Assembly: GCA_902577425.1 (NCBI GenBank)
Contig: CACGZD010000003.1
Coordinates: 1 to 64,000, forward strand
Source: an uncultured Alphaproteobacteria bacterium
Lineage (GTDB): Bacteria > Pseudomonadota > Alphaproteobacteria > HIMB59 > GCA-002718135
DNA: 64,000 nt
Direction: 5' to 3'
The notes under the pieces were generated by a model that was not told the DNA's origin, ran no database searches, and saw only the letters and a program-made list of their open reading frames with translations. The position numbers and the translations under genes were made by a program. This document shows positions 54,535 to 62,896 of the stretch, one piece after another (position 1 is the stretch's first letter; each line of letters begins with the position of its first letter).

Positions 54535-55134
54535 ATGAGTATATCAGATTTTATACAAGGGTTTATAATTGGGTCATCTCTAATTATTGCCATTGGACCA
54601 CAAAATTTATATGTAATTAACCAAGGATTAAAAAAAAATTACATTCTAACTGTAGTGTTATTATGTAGCTTATCAGATAGCTTACTTATTATTTGCGGAA
54701 TTTATCTATCAAATAGTTTACTTAATTTAAATGAGTCATTAATAATTACTATGAAGTTGATTGGTGGAATTTGGTTAATTTTATATGGGATCAATAAAAT
54801 CAAAAATTCAAATAATAATATTATTGAGAATCAAAAATTTAAAAAATTATCATTTAGTAAAGTAATATTTACAACACTTGCTATAACTTATGCTAATCCA
54901 CATGTATATTTAGATACAGTTGTATTACTAGGATCAATTTCAGTAAATTTTGATAACAAATTATCTTTTGGATTGGGTGCAATAATTTCAAGTTTTTTAT
55001 TTTTTTTTACCTTAGGTTATTTTTCAAAATTTTTATCAAAATACATTAATTCTAAAAAAGTTTGGTTTTATATTGATAATGTAATGGGAGTCTTAATGCT
55101 ATTATATGGTTTATTTTTTGTATTCATGAATTAA
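54535..55134 (+). CDS. LysE/ArgO-family amino acid exporter
   Basis: A 199-residue six-helix exporter. The LysE signature is at the start: GFIIGSSLIIAIGPQNLYVI, in adjoining halves (10-29), with the GPQN box. A TYANPHVYLDTVVLLGS region near 119-135 is also diagnostic, favouring the LysE/ArgO group over RhtB. It exports lysine, arginine or a related amino acid. The 3' end overlaps the convergent 1004-residue gene by 24 bases. Confidence 0.92.
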   Translation: MSISDFIQGFIIGSSLIIAIGPQNLYVINQGLKKNYILTVVLLCSLSDSLLIICGIYLSNSLLNLNESLIITMKLIGGIWLILYGINKIKNSNNNIIENQKFKKLSFSKVIFTTLAITYANPHVYLDTVVLLGSISVNFDNKLSFGLGAIISSFLFFFTLGYFSKFLSKYINSKKVWFYIDNVMGVLMLLYGLFFVFMN

Positions 55135-58125
55135 AAAATCTTTTATTTCTTTACAGACAAAATCAACATTGTCTTTATGAAAAATCATTGGTGGCTTAAT
55201 TTTAATAACATTATTATATGGACCATCAGTACTTAATAAAATTCCTCTATGTCTTAAATTATTAATTAAATTTTTAGCTAGTTTTGAATTAGGAGCCAAT
55301 GGATTTCCACTTGTAATTAAATCAATTCCAATAAATAATCCTGTTCCAGTGACACTACTAATTAAATTTGGAAATTTTGATTTTATTTTATTTAATTCCT
55401 TAATAAAATAATTTCCAACAACCTTTGCGTTATTTTGCAAATTTTCTTTCTTTATAAAATCTAATACAGCATTGGCTACTGCACAAGATACAGGATTTCC
55501 TCCAAAGGAATTGAAATACTCCATTCCATTATTAAAAGTATTAGCTATTTTTTCAGTAGTAATAACTGCTGCTATTGGATGTCCATTGCCCATAGGTTTT
55601 CCTAGTGTAACAATATCAGGAATTATATCATGATCTTCAAAGGCCCAAAAATTATTTCCCACTCTTCCAAAACCTGTTTGAACTTCATCAGCTATACAAA
55701 GTGCATTTTTTTTTCTTACAATTTTAAAAATATTTTTTAAGTAATTTTTAGGTAATACTACCTGACCACCACATCCCAAAATGCTTTCAAAGAAAAATGA
55801 AGATAATTTGTTTTTATTATTAAAACTATTATTAATTTTTTCACTAGCTTCACCAATATATTTATTAACCCAATTTTTATTTTTTTCAGTCCATTTACCT
55901 CTTATAGAGTCTGGCATTCTTAATACGTGAACATAATTTTTTTTACCCTCACCACCTTTACTTTTAAATTTATATGGACTTATATCTATTAATGAATTTG
56001 TATGGCCATGATATGCATTATCCATAACTAATATGTTTGTTCCTTTTGTATATGTTTTAGCAATTCTTAATGCTAAATCATTTGCTTCTGAGCCTGTACA
56101 AACAAAGAATATTTTATTTAGTTTTTTGGGAAAAGTTTTTAATAATTTATCACTATATTCATTAATAATTTTGTAAAGATATCTAGTATTAGTATTCATT
56201 TTTAGATTTTGAGCGACAAGGGCTTTGTGAACAAATTTATTTGAATGACCAACATGAGAAATATTGTTCACACAATCTAGATATTTTCTCCCATTTTCAT
56301 CATAAAAAAATTGATCTTTTGCTTCCAACATATGAAGAGGTTCTTGATATGAAATTGATAAGTTTAAACCAATATTCTTTTTTCTTTTGGATAAAACATT
56401 TTTTATTTTAGATTTGTTGGTAAAAAAAGTTTCAGGAATTTTTAAAATGATATTTGGATCAGGGGAAATTTGCTCCCAAATCTTGAGTAAATATTCTTCT
56501 CCAACTCCAGGAAAATTATTCACTTCATCTAAAAGTGTTGTCATAATTTGAAAATGTAAATGCGGCGTCCAATTACCATTAACTTTATAATCTCCAATTT
56601 CACCAATCCATTGACCTCTATTTATAGATTGTCCAACTTTTAATTTCCTCATACATTTATTCGATAAATGACCGTACAAAGTATAAAATTTATAATTATT
56701 AATTTTATGTTCTAAAATAACAGTTGGTCCATAGTCGTATTTAAAATCATTATTATGTAAAACGACGACCTTTCCATTTAAAGGAGATTTAATTGGAGTA
56801 TTTTCATCAACAAAAATATCAATACCTAAATGAACATTTCTTCTTTTACTTGAATTAAAGGATGAAATGTAATGATCACTTTTATAAACTTTTCTTTTCT
56901 CTTTATATAAACCAATACCAATACCTTTGTTTAAAAATTTTTTAACCAAGCTATTAAGTTTTTTATTTGAAGGGTTTGATTTTAACAAGATACTAGTTTT
57001 ATCAAAATGAATAATTTTTTTATTAACTTCATTAAGATCAAAATCAAAAATATTTGTAAATTTTTGTTTTTTTATAAATTTTAATCTTTGAGTAAAATTA
57101 CTAATAGGTTCTCGATTACAAATATTTCTAATTACAGCTATAAAAAAATAAGAATCAATTTTATGGAGTTTAAAGACTAAATTCCATGCATTCTTTTCGC
57201 TTATACTAAGATACTTATTTTCAGGATATTTTTTTCTTTGTTTAGCTGCCATTATGAGAGTAATTACTAAACGTGACTTAATCAAGCCTAATAAAGAATA
57301 AATCTCATTATCAGAAATAGGATAAATTTTATTATATGAGCCAACTATATTATTAAGAGTATCAAATAAATTTTTACTTTGCATTAAGGCATATGAAAGT
57401 GCAATTGCGAGATCATTTATTGAAGGAGCGTATATTGAGTCCCCAAAGTCAATTAATCCAACTATTTTTTCATTTTTAACAACTATATTATAATCATTAG
57501 GATCACCGTGAGTAACAGAGTGTTTTAAGTTTTTTTTATTTTTTTTAACAAATTTTTCATGATCATTAATTAAATCTAAAATCACAGTTTTTTTTAAATT
57601 ACTAAACAAATTTATAAATTTTTTAACCCAATCTATATTTGATGGATCCCATTCAAATTTTCTTATTGCTTGATTATGTATAAAACTATCTAGCTGTTTA
57701 GATTGTAATGCCAATAACTCTCCTAATGATCTTTCAATATGATTATTTATTTTTGATTTTGCATACATATTTCCATCTATGTAAGTTAAAATTCTAACTG
57801 CACACTCTCTATGTTTTTTATCTTGATAAAATAAAATATTTTTATGTAAAATTTCAGGATAAATTTGCTTTAATTGTTTATTAGATCTCAAATGTTTAAT
57901 TAACAAGTCTTGATATTCTAGTTGTTTTAAAGACTCTTTTGGATTTGAGATTTTAACAACATATTCTTTAGAACTATTAAATTTAATTAGAAAATTTATA
58001 TCTCTTTCACTATTTAATCTTGATAATTTGAAATTTTTTGATTTAAAAAAATTATAATTTTTTTTTAACCAAAGGGAAAATTTTGTTACATTAATTAAAG
58101 GTGGTTGTTCATCAAAAACTGACAT
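55111..58125 (-). CDS. three-domain fusion: APH-type kinase, M23 peptidase, class III aminotransferase/phospho-lyase
   Basis: A 1004-residue soluble protein with no signal peptide. Domain 1 (about 20-330) is an APH-like kinase: HGDPNDYN (206-213) and IDFGD (225-229) are its catalytic and metal motifs. Domain 2 (about 425-530) is an M23/LytM fold with its zinc ligands intact: H432 and D436 (HLGID), H486 (YGHLS), H522 and H524 (PHLHF). Domain 3 (about 590-1004) is a class III PLP enzyme, with D813 ([10 protein letters not shown]) and the Schiff-base K843 in [10 protein letters not shown], a motif typical of phospho-lyases like ethanolamine-phosphate phospho-lyase. Kinase plus lyase suggests ATP-dependent deamination of an amino alcohol or hydroxylysine. 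Similar fusions are known, mostly without assigned function. Confidence 0.93.
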
Positions 58126-61980: not shown

Positions 61981-62311
61981 AAATATACAGAATTAATAAT
62001 ATATTCCTTTAAACGAAATTATCTAAAAAAAGAAAAAATATCCTAGGTATTTCAGGTAAAATTAAGCATGTAAGAAAACAAGGTATAAAAAAGGCTAAAA
62101 CAAGCCAATTTTATCAAACAATAAAAAATCAATTAAAAACACAGAAAATAAAGAATTTTTATAAATAAATTATATATTTCAATAATTTAAACAGTTAGCT
62201 AGAAATATTTGCGATTCCAATGAAAAAATAAAAAAAATATTTAAAATAATTATTATATTTCAATAATTTATAATATTTTAGTTTTTTTAATTAGAAACAT
62301 TAAACAAAAAA
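61981..62311. other. intergenic region upstream of the tandem small membrane proteins
   Basis: About 330 AT-rich bases without a convincing gene. One plus-strand frame, open from about 62021 to a TAA near 62168, has a lysine-rich protein-like reading but no ATG, GTG or TTG start, and I do not call it. The right part contains the promoter for the next genes. Confidence 0.45.
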
Positions 62312-62376
62312 TATAATGAGATGCTCACTTAAGAAAAGCTTAAGTAACGTGATAAACTAATTCGAGGAGAATAGGT
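62312..62376 (+). promoter_or_regulatory. promoter, 5' hairpin and strong RBS of the tandem small membrane protein operon
   Basis: A perfect -10 TATAAT is at 62312-62317; the -35 is unclear. Ten bases on, a 7-bp stem (ACTTAAG / CTTAAGT, five-base loop, 62327-62345) would sit at the very 5' end of the transcript, where such hairpins protect mRNA. A CGAGGAGA Shine-Dalgarno (62362-62369) precedes the ATG by seven bases. Confidence 0.5.
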
Positions 62377-62598
62377 ATGTTAGATACTGTTAAGAGTTGG
62401 TTAAGGCAAATAACTGAAGTAGGCCTTCTATTAATTGCTGCGGCCGTAGTACTCGAAATTATTTTTGGATCTGCAGTTCCATATATTGGAGTTGGGATTC
62501 TAGACAATATTATCGCGCTAACTGCAAAATTAGGTCAAGATGGTCTTGTTGGTATTATTGCCATTGGTATCATTGTTTGGCTATATTTGCGTAGATAA
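62377..62598 (+). CDS. small membrane protein, tandem paralogue 1
   Basis: A 73-residue protein: an amphipathic start (MLDTVKSWLRQ), a hydrophobic helix (about 16-32), the loop FGSAVPYIG (30-38), DNIIAL and a second glycine-rich hydrophobic helix (GLVGIIAIGIIVWLYL) ending in RR. It is about half identical to its downstream neighbour. I do not recognise a family. Strong promoter and ribosome binding site signals suggest high expression. Roles as a pore, coat or pilin-like subunit or membrane scaffold are only guesses. Confidence 0.8.
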   Translation: MLDTVKSWLRQITEVGLLLIAAAVVLEIIFGSAVPYIGVGILDNIIALTAKLGQDGLVGIIAIGIIVWLYLRR

Positions 62599-62625
62599 TC
62601 TTCTTAAAAACGAAGGAGTTTAACC

Positions 62626-62844
62626 ATGATGGATAATGTTAAAAGTTTTCTTAGAGGTGTAATGGATGTAGCTATGACGGTTATTCCACTTAGTGTAGTA
62701 TTGGGTGTAATTTTTGGCCCTGCAGTTCCTTTTATTGGAGCTGATACTATAGATAATATTTCTGCACTTGTTGCTGATTTAGGTGGAAGTGGCTTAATTG
62801 GAATAATTACTCTAGGTATTCTTTACGCTTTATTTAGAAGATAG
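62626..62844 (+). CDS. small membrane protein, tandem paralogue 2
   Basis: A 72-residue protein with the same plan as paralogue 1: MMDNVKSFLRG, a helix (about 14-29), FGPAVPFIG (30-38), DNISAL and a final helix (GLIGIITLGILYALF) ending in RR. It lies 27 bases downstream of paralogue 1 and has its own strong AAGGAG ribosome binding site. About 37 of 72 positions are identical by hand alignment. A hairpin terminator follows. The helix 1 segment has Pro and Thr where paralogue 1 has Ala and Leu, so the two copies have diverged, possibly to form a heteromer. Confidence 0.8.
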   Translation: MMDNVKSFLRGVMDVAMTVIPLSVVLGVIFGPAVPFIGADTIDNISALVADLGGSGLIGIITLGILYALFRR

Positions 62845-62862
62845 AAAATAATATATATTATT

Positions 62863-62896
62863 AAAAGACCCTCTTCACTTAGAGGGTCTTTTTTTT
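62863..62896. terminator. bidirectional terminator after the small membrane protein pair
   Basis: A 12-bp stem (AAAAGACCCTCT / AGAGGGTCTTTT) with loop TCACTT runs into T tracts on both strands. On the minus strand it encodes the last residues of the VTT gene (KKRPSK), whose stop codon is in the loop. It is the strongest terminator in the window. Confidence 0.92.

Follow-up and report, generated by a model that had tools for sequence, protein, structure and literature searches.

What two small, adjacent genes near the end of a stretch of alphaproteobacterial DNA encode, and whether their products work together, is the question raised by this locus. The stretch (64,000 nucleotides from an uncultured member of the Alphaproteobacteria, analysed as a whole and called the window here) had been described in an earlier note, in which the two genes were taken for strongly expressed paralogues and a hetero-oligomer was suggested: a pore, a scaffold, or a filament or coat-like subunit. 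The parts of the locus are as follows, f1 being the window's own family.

62312-62317, plus strand: TATAAT, a -10-like hexamer without a good -35 box (seen in the sequence; TATAxT at the same distance in many f1 relatives).
62327-62345, plus strand: 5' leader hairpin ACTTAAG-AAAAG-CTTAAGT, then the conserved RACGTGATRAAC (seen in the sequence; pairing in relatives).
62364-62369, plus strand: GAGGAG, ribosome binding site of gene 1 (seen in the sequence; CGAGGAG conserved in f1).
62377-62598, plus strand: gene 1, encoding a two-helix membrane protein of 73 amino acids (open reading frame; family of relatives; helices predicted by AF2).
62613-62618, plus strand: AAGGAG, ribosome binding site of gene 2 (seen in the sequence; conserved in f1).
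62626-62844, plus strand: gene 2, encoding a paralogue of 72 amino acids (open reading frame; 51 % identity to the gene 1 product; a clade of its own in f1).
62863-62892, plus strand: intrinsic terminator, a 12-bp stem and U tail (seen in the sequence; shuffles; relatives).

Both open reading frames are present where, and on the strand on which, they had been reported. BLASTP aligned the two products without gaps, with 37 of 72 residues identical and 51 of 72 similar (E 2e-24), in agreement with the description "about half identical", and the FGxAVP(Y/F)IG loop, the DNIxAL segment and the terminal RR were all found in the pair. The leader hairpin has a perfect stem of 7 bp, as described; in 20 relatives 98.6 % of cells are paired, and one pair shows a compensatory C-G to U-A change in two sequences. 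A core Shine-Dalgarno sequence precedes 125 of 183 family genes and 4.6 % of control ORFs, the start codons of the latter being approximate. The terminator has its 12 pairs and U tail; a search found 1 such element where 0.3 were expected in shuffles, and where the 3' sequence of a relative is long enough, the pair is again followed by a hairpin with a T run. Across the family, a terminator-like element lies 3' of 64 of 182 genes, against 4.1 % of the controls. The promoter fared less well. The perfect TATAAT is there, but a good -35 box is not, and promoter-like sites are abundant by chance in this AT-rich stretch (20 found versus 11 expected), which makes the promoter claim weaker than the other signals. 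Since the pair forms its own strongly translated and terminated unit, its product is probably abundant. Further 5', TATATTTCAATAATTTA occurs twice (window 62173-62189 and 62254-62270), and a similar block is seen there in many f1 relatives.

The leader of f1 was also considered as the mark of a shared regulon. This was ruled out, as the f1 leader pattern has one perfect copy in its own genome; viral contigs hold no copy of the pattern. A universal leader hairpin across the family was likewise rejected: upstream regions show a weak excess of stability over controls (mean z -0.56 versus -0.23, p = 0.02), and hairpins are convincing only in f1 and in phages.

No match above a curated cut-off, or otherwise convincing, was found for the pair in Pfam, NCBIfam, PHROG, PDB or BFVD, membership being taken to require either a score for the whole protein that exceeds the curated cut-off, or E < 1e-3 together with a family that is consistent. 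The best library matches are scattered and weak: TrbL with 17.5 bits (cut-off 25.9), TIGR03745, a T4SS pilin family, with 11.8 bits (cut-off 52.5), and DUF5708 with E 0.00097 for one family member only. Sequence searches of the PDB (phmmer, hmmsearch) gave nothing of note, and fold searches found no match in the PDB (Foldseek, for which short helical hairpins are hard) or in BFVD. The pair thus belongs to an undescribed family, unnamed by any curated library, and the earlier remark that no family comes to mind holds. The matches to TrbL, TIGR03745 and T4SS pilin are what speaks for a filament, pilin or coat-like subunit, but none of them reaches its curated cut-off, nothing resembling a signal peptide is apparent, cellular copies have no conserved secretion or virion genes beside them and viral copies mostly lie in nucleotide-metabolism regions. 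This part of the earlier proposal is not upheld, and such a subunit appears very improbable.

Profile searches, akin to a check proposed in the earlier note, yielded relatives in bacterial genomes. Family members occur in 31 of 289 sampled Alphaproteobacteria genomes, in 14 of 198 Phycisphaerae and in 3 of 398 genomes of a phylum-wide sample, the window's own included. Named assemblies with members are from Reyranella, Rhodospirillales, OCS116, PS1, a few Gammaproteobacteria and Planctomycetota; G326, of the same class as the window, has a family protein identical to that of the named OCS116 assemblies, which is why the sampled class is taken as Alphaproteobacteria; the window itself would belong to AEGEAN-169/HIMB59. 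The family is thus patchily scattered over many bacteria and rare outside Alphaproteobacteria and Phycisphaerae. It is under purifying selection, with dN/dS values of about 0.11-0.16 (medians in relatives of 0.157 for gene 1 and 0.121 for gene 2; 0.111 for viral copies). No neighbouring gene is conserved across the cellular lineages, the MazG, VTT and PhyH genes being local to f1, which suggests that the protein works without a fixed operon partner.

In Planctomycetota a promoter-like motif, TAAAG-N16/17-(G/A)CCGA, lies 70-91 bases 5' of the family gene in 15 of 16 loci (L087, L109, L114, L115, L120, L126, L127, L129, L131, L133, L136, L137, L138, L140 and L142), with only 10 other matches in 345 kb on both strands. 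Control by flagellar sigma-28 was considered for Phycisphaerae and rejected: flagellin promoters of this group are spaced differently, and in 7 of 12 genomes no flagellin match was obtained, so the motif is not simply flagellar.

Whether the two genes always occur as a pair, another check proposed earlier, can be answered for f1: the genes were found in 22 of 110 genomes, in every case both of them. The f1 pair occupies one syntenic site, between a PhyH dioxygenase gene and a VTT or MazG gene. In the pair-less f1 relatives examined the neighbourhood at this site is intact and neither gene is there, a clean joint loss. At least one apparent absence, that in G002, is due to a contig that ends at the site of the pair. 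In several relatives the assembly is broken no more than a few hundred bases from the pair (G002:C16, G005:C33, G014:C36, G018:C20, G713:C124), and some apparent absences are therefore unsafe. G007 has a second, divergent pair elsewhere in its genome, a very divergent tandem (L031:3461-4114, on G007:C45) beside a gene named by eye as a TypA-like GTPase. In six f1 loci the pair has a MazG pyrophosphohydrolase gene on its 3' side (L026:8589-9353, 125.8 bits), a gene missing from the site in relatives without the pair. Elsewhere in the window, positions 55111-58125 on the minus strand encode a fusion of 1004 amino acids, conserved in f1, of an APH-type kinase, an M23 peptidase and a class-III aminotransferase.

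Outside f1 the picture is mixed. Among loci L033-L142, nearly all from outside f1, 26 of 110 have two adjacent members; members in Phycisphaerae are single-copy, and none of 73 phage loci has an adjacent pair. As most lineages, Phycisphaerae and all phages are single-copy, pairing is not needed for the basic function. In the tree, f1 gene 1 and gene 2 form separate clades (SH-aLRT 93 and 100). Several independent duplications were the first tree's suggestion; this was dropped, as a tree constrained to hold all second genes in one clade had a higher likelihood (p-AU 0.82). The one-clade tree being no less likely, a single old duplication is not rejected, and with loss of the second copy in many lineages it appears a fair reading of the trees. 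For the proposed hetero-oligomer, the strict co-presence in f1 and the recurring pairs elsewhere lend support without proof, whereas the single-copy state in most lineages and in phages pulls the other way. An AF2 model of the in-frame read-through of both genes (TAA as Q) reached a pLDDT of 50, with no usable interface.

The two helices per protein that had been noted agree with the two-helix hairpin predicted by AF2. For gene 1, a model based on 59 family sequences (mean pLDDT 86.8) has helices at residues 2-33, 41-54 and 57-72. Amphipathicity is significant for residues 2-14 and for residues 41-54 (p = 0.001 each), and residues 15-33 and 57-72 are uniformly hydrophobic. Where the N-terminal amphipathic helix meets the hydrophobic segment, an acidic residue (E/D14) is conserved. 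TM1 is short (about 15-31) and leads to a Gly-rich loop (F-G...V-P-F.G-G-D), the second amphipathic helix and a Gly hinge (L52-G53..G56); TM2 (57-71), likewise short, has K/R at its end. The most conserved positions, from 191 distinct family sequences (effective number 58), are E/D14, G31, F36, N44, L52, G53, G56 and G59. By inspection, the protein start is an amphipathic basic helix and no signal peptide-like region is apparent. Both ends bear basic residues, so that by the positive-inside rule both termini would be cytoplasmic. No polar pore-lining face is evident in TM1 or TM2, where conservation and hydrophobic moments are not significant.

The two amphipathic segments, the short TMs, the strong expression signals and the lack of a pore-like polar face would suit a membrane organiser that is not a channel: an abundant scaffold, or an annular or chaperone-like hairpin that gives shape or stability to the bilayer or to a respiratory complex. 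The PspA system and TatA-like membrane-thinning proteins are models for such a role. On the other side are the patchy distribution and the lack of a partner gene conserved beside it, and an organiser of this kind is considered rather unlikely.

A second source of evidence is formed by phages. On viral contig L144 the family gene has nrdA on one side and, on the other, an IscA-like gene together with nrdB, and PHROG matches beside it include nrdA, nrdB, a thioredoxin-domain protein and an exonuclease. A search with the L144 copy gave 74 viral contigs and a broader search 530 viral contig stretches with relatives, among which near-duplicates may be included; the viral contigs read have one family copy each. 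Most of the first set have the order nrdA-gene-iscA-nrdB or a close variant of it, and the commonest arrangement in phages is nrdA-gene-tmRNA-iscA-nrdB. One contig of 140 kb (L256) encodes a T4-type gp23 (PF07068, 424.8 bits); gp23 was not found on nine other viral records, which may be incomplete or stem from phages of another type. None of the isolate phages in INPHARED encodes the family protein at the sensitivity used. In other contigs the gene lies beside PhoH (L281), beside a terminase gene (L359) or beside csgF/csgG (L219). The latter contig has a phage curli operon (L219:8340-12746), csgF-csgG and then two repeat proteins that bear curlin-like QxGxxN motifs; a study of pelagimyophages states that such phages lack CsgA and CsgB (PMC7029224).

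The tmRNA between the family gene and iscA is permuted (Rfam RF04321, 69 bits versus a cut-off of 47). Permuted two-piece tmRNAs were seen in L213:8253-8466, L215, L226, L229, L255, L256 and L219, mostly beside nrdA/nrdB and directly after the family gene, and ARAGORN gave the phage tags GNQNDYLLAA, GNQSDYLLAA, GKNDYLLAA and ANSNQYALAA. Assignment of phage hosts by tag was abandoned, there being no match among ten host tmRNAs. Two-piece tmRNAs were already known in SAR11 and OM43 myophages (PMC9004378), and no mention of the family protein was seen there.

The viral copies form one clade (SH-aLRT 99) nested in the cellular tree, although with 78 columns the placement is coarse, and the best explanation would be that phages took the gene from cells. 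Their leader has its own hairpin, of 4 bp with a six-base loop and unlike the f1 leader in sequence, and both bases have changed in 2 of its 4 pairs (6 cells, a value that no shuffle reached). In L144:1601-1652 and 27 other viral leaders this highly conserved hairpin, with a CGAAAY-type loop, is followed by TAAACTATTTTT just 5' of the ribosome binding site. The T4 late-promoter core TATAAAT was found within 80 nt 5' of none of 60 dereplicated viral copies and further away in 8, whereas in the L256 phage TATAAATA stands 27-69 bases 5' of genes in the structural region.

Carriage by many phages, together with patchiness in related species and clean joint loss at a fixed site, would be expected of a gene for host-virus conflict, acting in phage exclusion: defence in cells and superinfection exclusion in phages. 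The fixed chromosomal site of the pair in f1 and its slow evolution there (dN/dS 0.12-0.16), however, do not resemble a defence island, and no defence neighbours were seen with a set of libraries that left out PADLOC. A conflict gene is judged improbable.

Phage carriage also raises the possibility of a lysis trigger, a holin- or pinholin-like hairpin with both ends inside that builds up and then opens or depolarises the inner membrane, the cellular pair then being a holin/antiholin-like couple. Class II holins are small, with two short TMs and a first helix rich in small residues. The family proteins, with 73-75 amino acids, resemble them in all of this, and the AF2 hairpin and the hydrophobicity profile agree with two TMs in 65-95 amino acids. 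In L276 and L312 the gene lies just 5' of one for a cell wall hydrolase of the SleB type (Hydrolase_2) whose N terminus is hydrophobic, in L279 it is near a glucosaminidase endolysin, and PHROG holin matches exist, weak and non-significant. Class II holins are expressed late, with or beside an endolysin, but promoter cores and neighbours of the family gene point elsewhere: the commonest phage site lies among nucleotide-metabolism genes, the nearby late-promoter core of the structural genes is missing and a hydrolase adjoins in a subgroup only. Furthermore, there is no Pfam holin match, and a lethal protein does not fit with expression signals this strong or with conservation in the chromosomes of cells. 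A holin therefore seems unlikely.

The explanation that is tentatively preferred, as one that could well prove wrong, is an abundant, oligomer-forming hairpin protein of the inner membrane, hetero-oligomeric where paired and host-derived in phages, that acts on membrane permeability or integrity. The two gene products would be subunits of a small inner-membrane assembly, their hairpins packing via small residues (G16, A21, A/G23, G59, A62). Single-copy lineages and phages would form a homo-oligomer, and a hetero-oligomer would arise where the gene is tandemly duplicated. The assembly, either a small ring resembling a channel or an array that stabilises the membrane, would most likely adjust the permeability or the mechanical integrity of the inner membrane under stress. 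In marine T4-like phages the gene would be of cellular origin and its expression no part of the late programme, and the phage copy presumably keeps the host membrane working during infection. Its support comes from the hairpin anatomy, the strict co-presence and joint loss in f1, the pairs in other lineages, with second genes that fit one ancient clade, purifying selection, the strong ribosome binding sites and terminator, and the structured leaders of f1 and phages. The lack of conserved neighbours in cells, the nesting of the viral clade, the phage site between nrdA and nrdB and the missing late promoter there count in its favour as well. Its scatter over many bacteria and presence in hundreds of ocean virus contigs suggest that the protein is probably useful in the cell membrane and was borrowed by viruses. 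Against this assembly count the accessory, patchy distribution, odd for a core membrane function, the single gene in most carriers, the poor read-through fold, the lack of a polar pore face and the hydrolase adjoining in a few phages. The facts on the family, the pair and the phages are held with high confidence.

A wider proposal, possible and somewhat doubtful, is that a large class of membrane genes of host origin has been overlooked: phages of ocean bacteria would keep a host hairpin protein and a conserved structured leader between their ribonucleotide reductase (nrd) genes, holding the membrane in working order, and cells would have a new kind of one- or two-subunit assembly. A family that is present in 530 viral stretches and in many bacterial genomes, yet missed by the libraries because its protein is small, would be a common ingredient of marine virus-host interaction. 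The fold that cells and phages have in common may offer a direct route to the demands that phages make on the host membrane, and the f1 pair, being obligate, a simple two-gene system for the formation of hetero-oligomers.

Several known systems share features with the family. Class II holins and P21-type pinholins are alike in size, in the two short TMs with both ends inside (a topology deduced here), in the small-residue-rich first helix and in phage carriage; the pair's family differs from them in being mainly cellular, without library match or nearby late promoter, and mostly at nrdA/nrdB rather than in a lysis cassette. The T4SS pilins (TIGR03745, TrbL/VirB6 PF04610, T4SS_pilin PF18895) share short hydrophobic two-helix segments and weak profile scores, while the family scores well under the cut-offs and has neither an apparent signal peptide nor conjugation genes beside it. 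Mechanosensitive channels of the MscL type have the same succession of N-terminal amphipathic helix, TM1, loop and TM2, with both ends inside; the family protein is half the size, has its second amphipathic helix on the other side and gives no sequence match. Cyanophage high-light-inducible proteins are host-derived small membrane proteins of marine T4-like phages, with one helix and a link to photosynthesis. The family resembles them as a small membrane protein of cellular origin in marine myoviruses, and differs in its unrelated sequence, in its hairpin instead of one helix, in not being linked to photosynthesis and in its phages, which have a permuted tmRNA of the alphaproteobacterial type.
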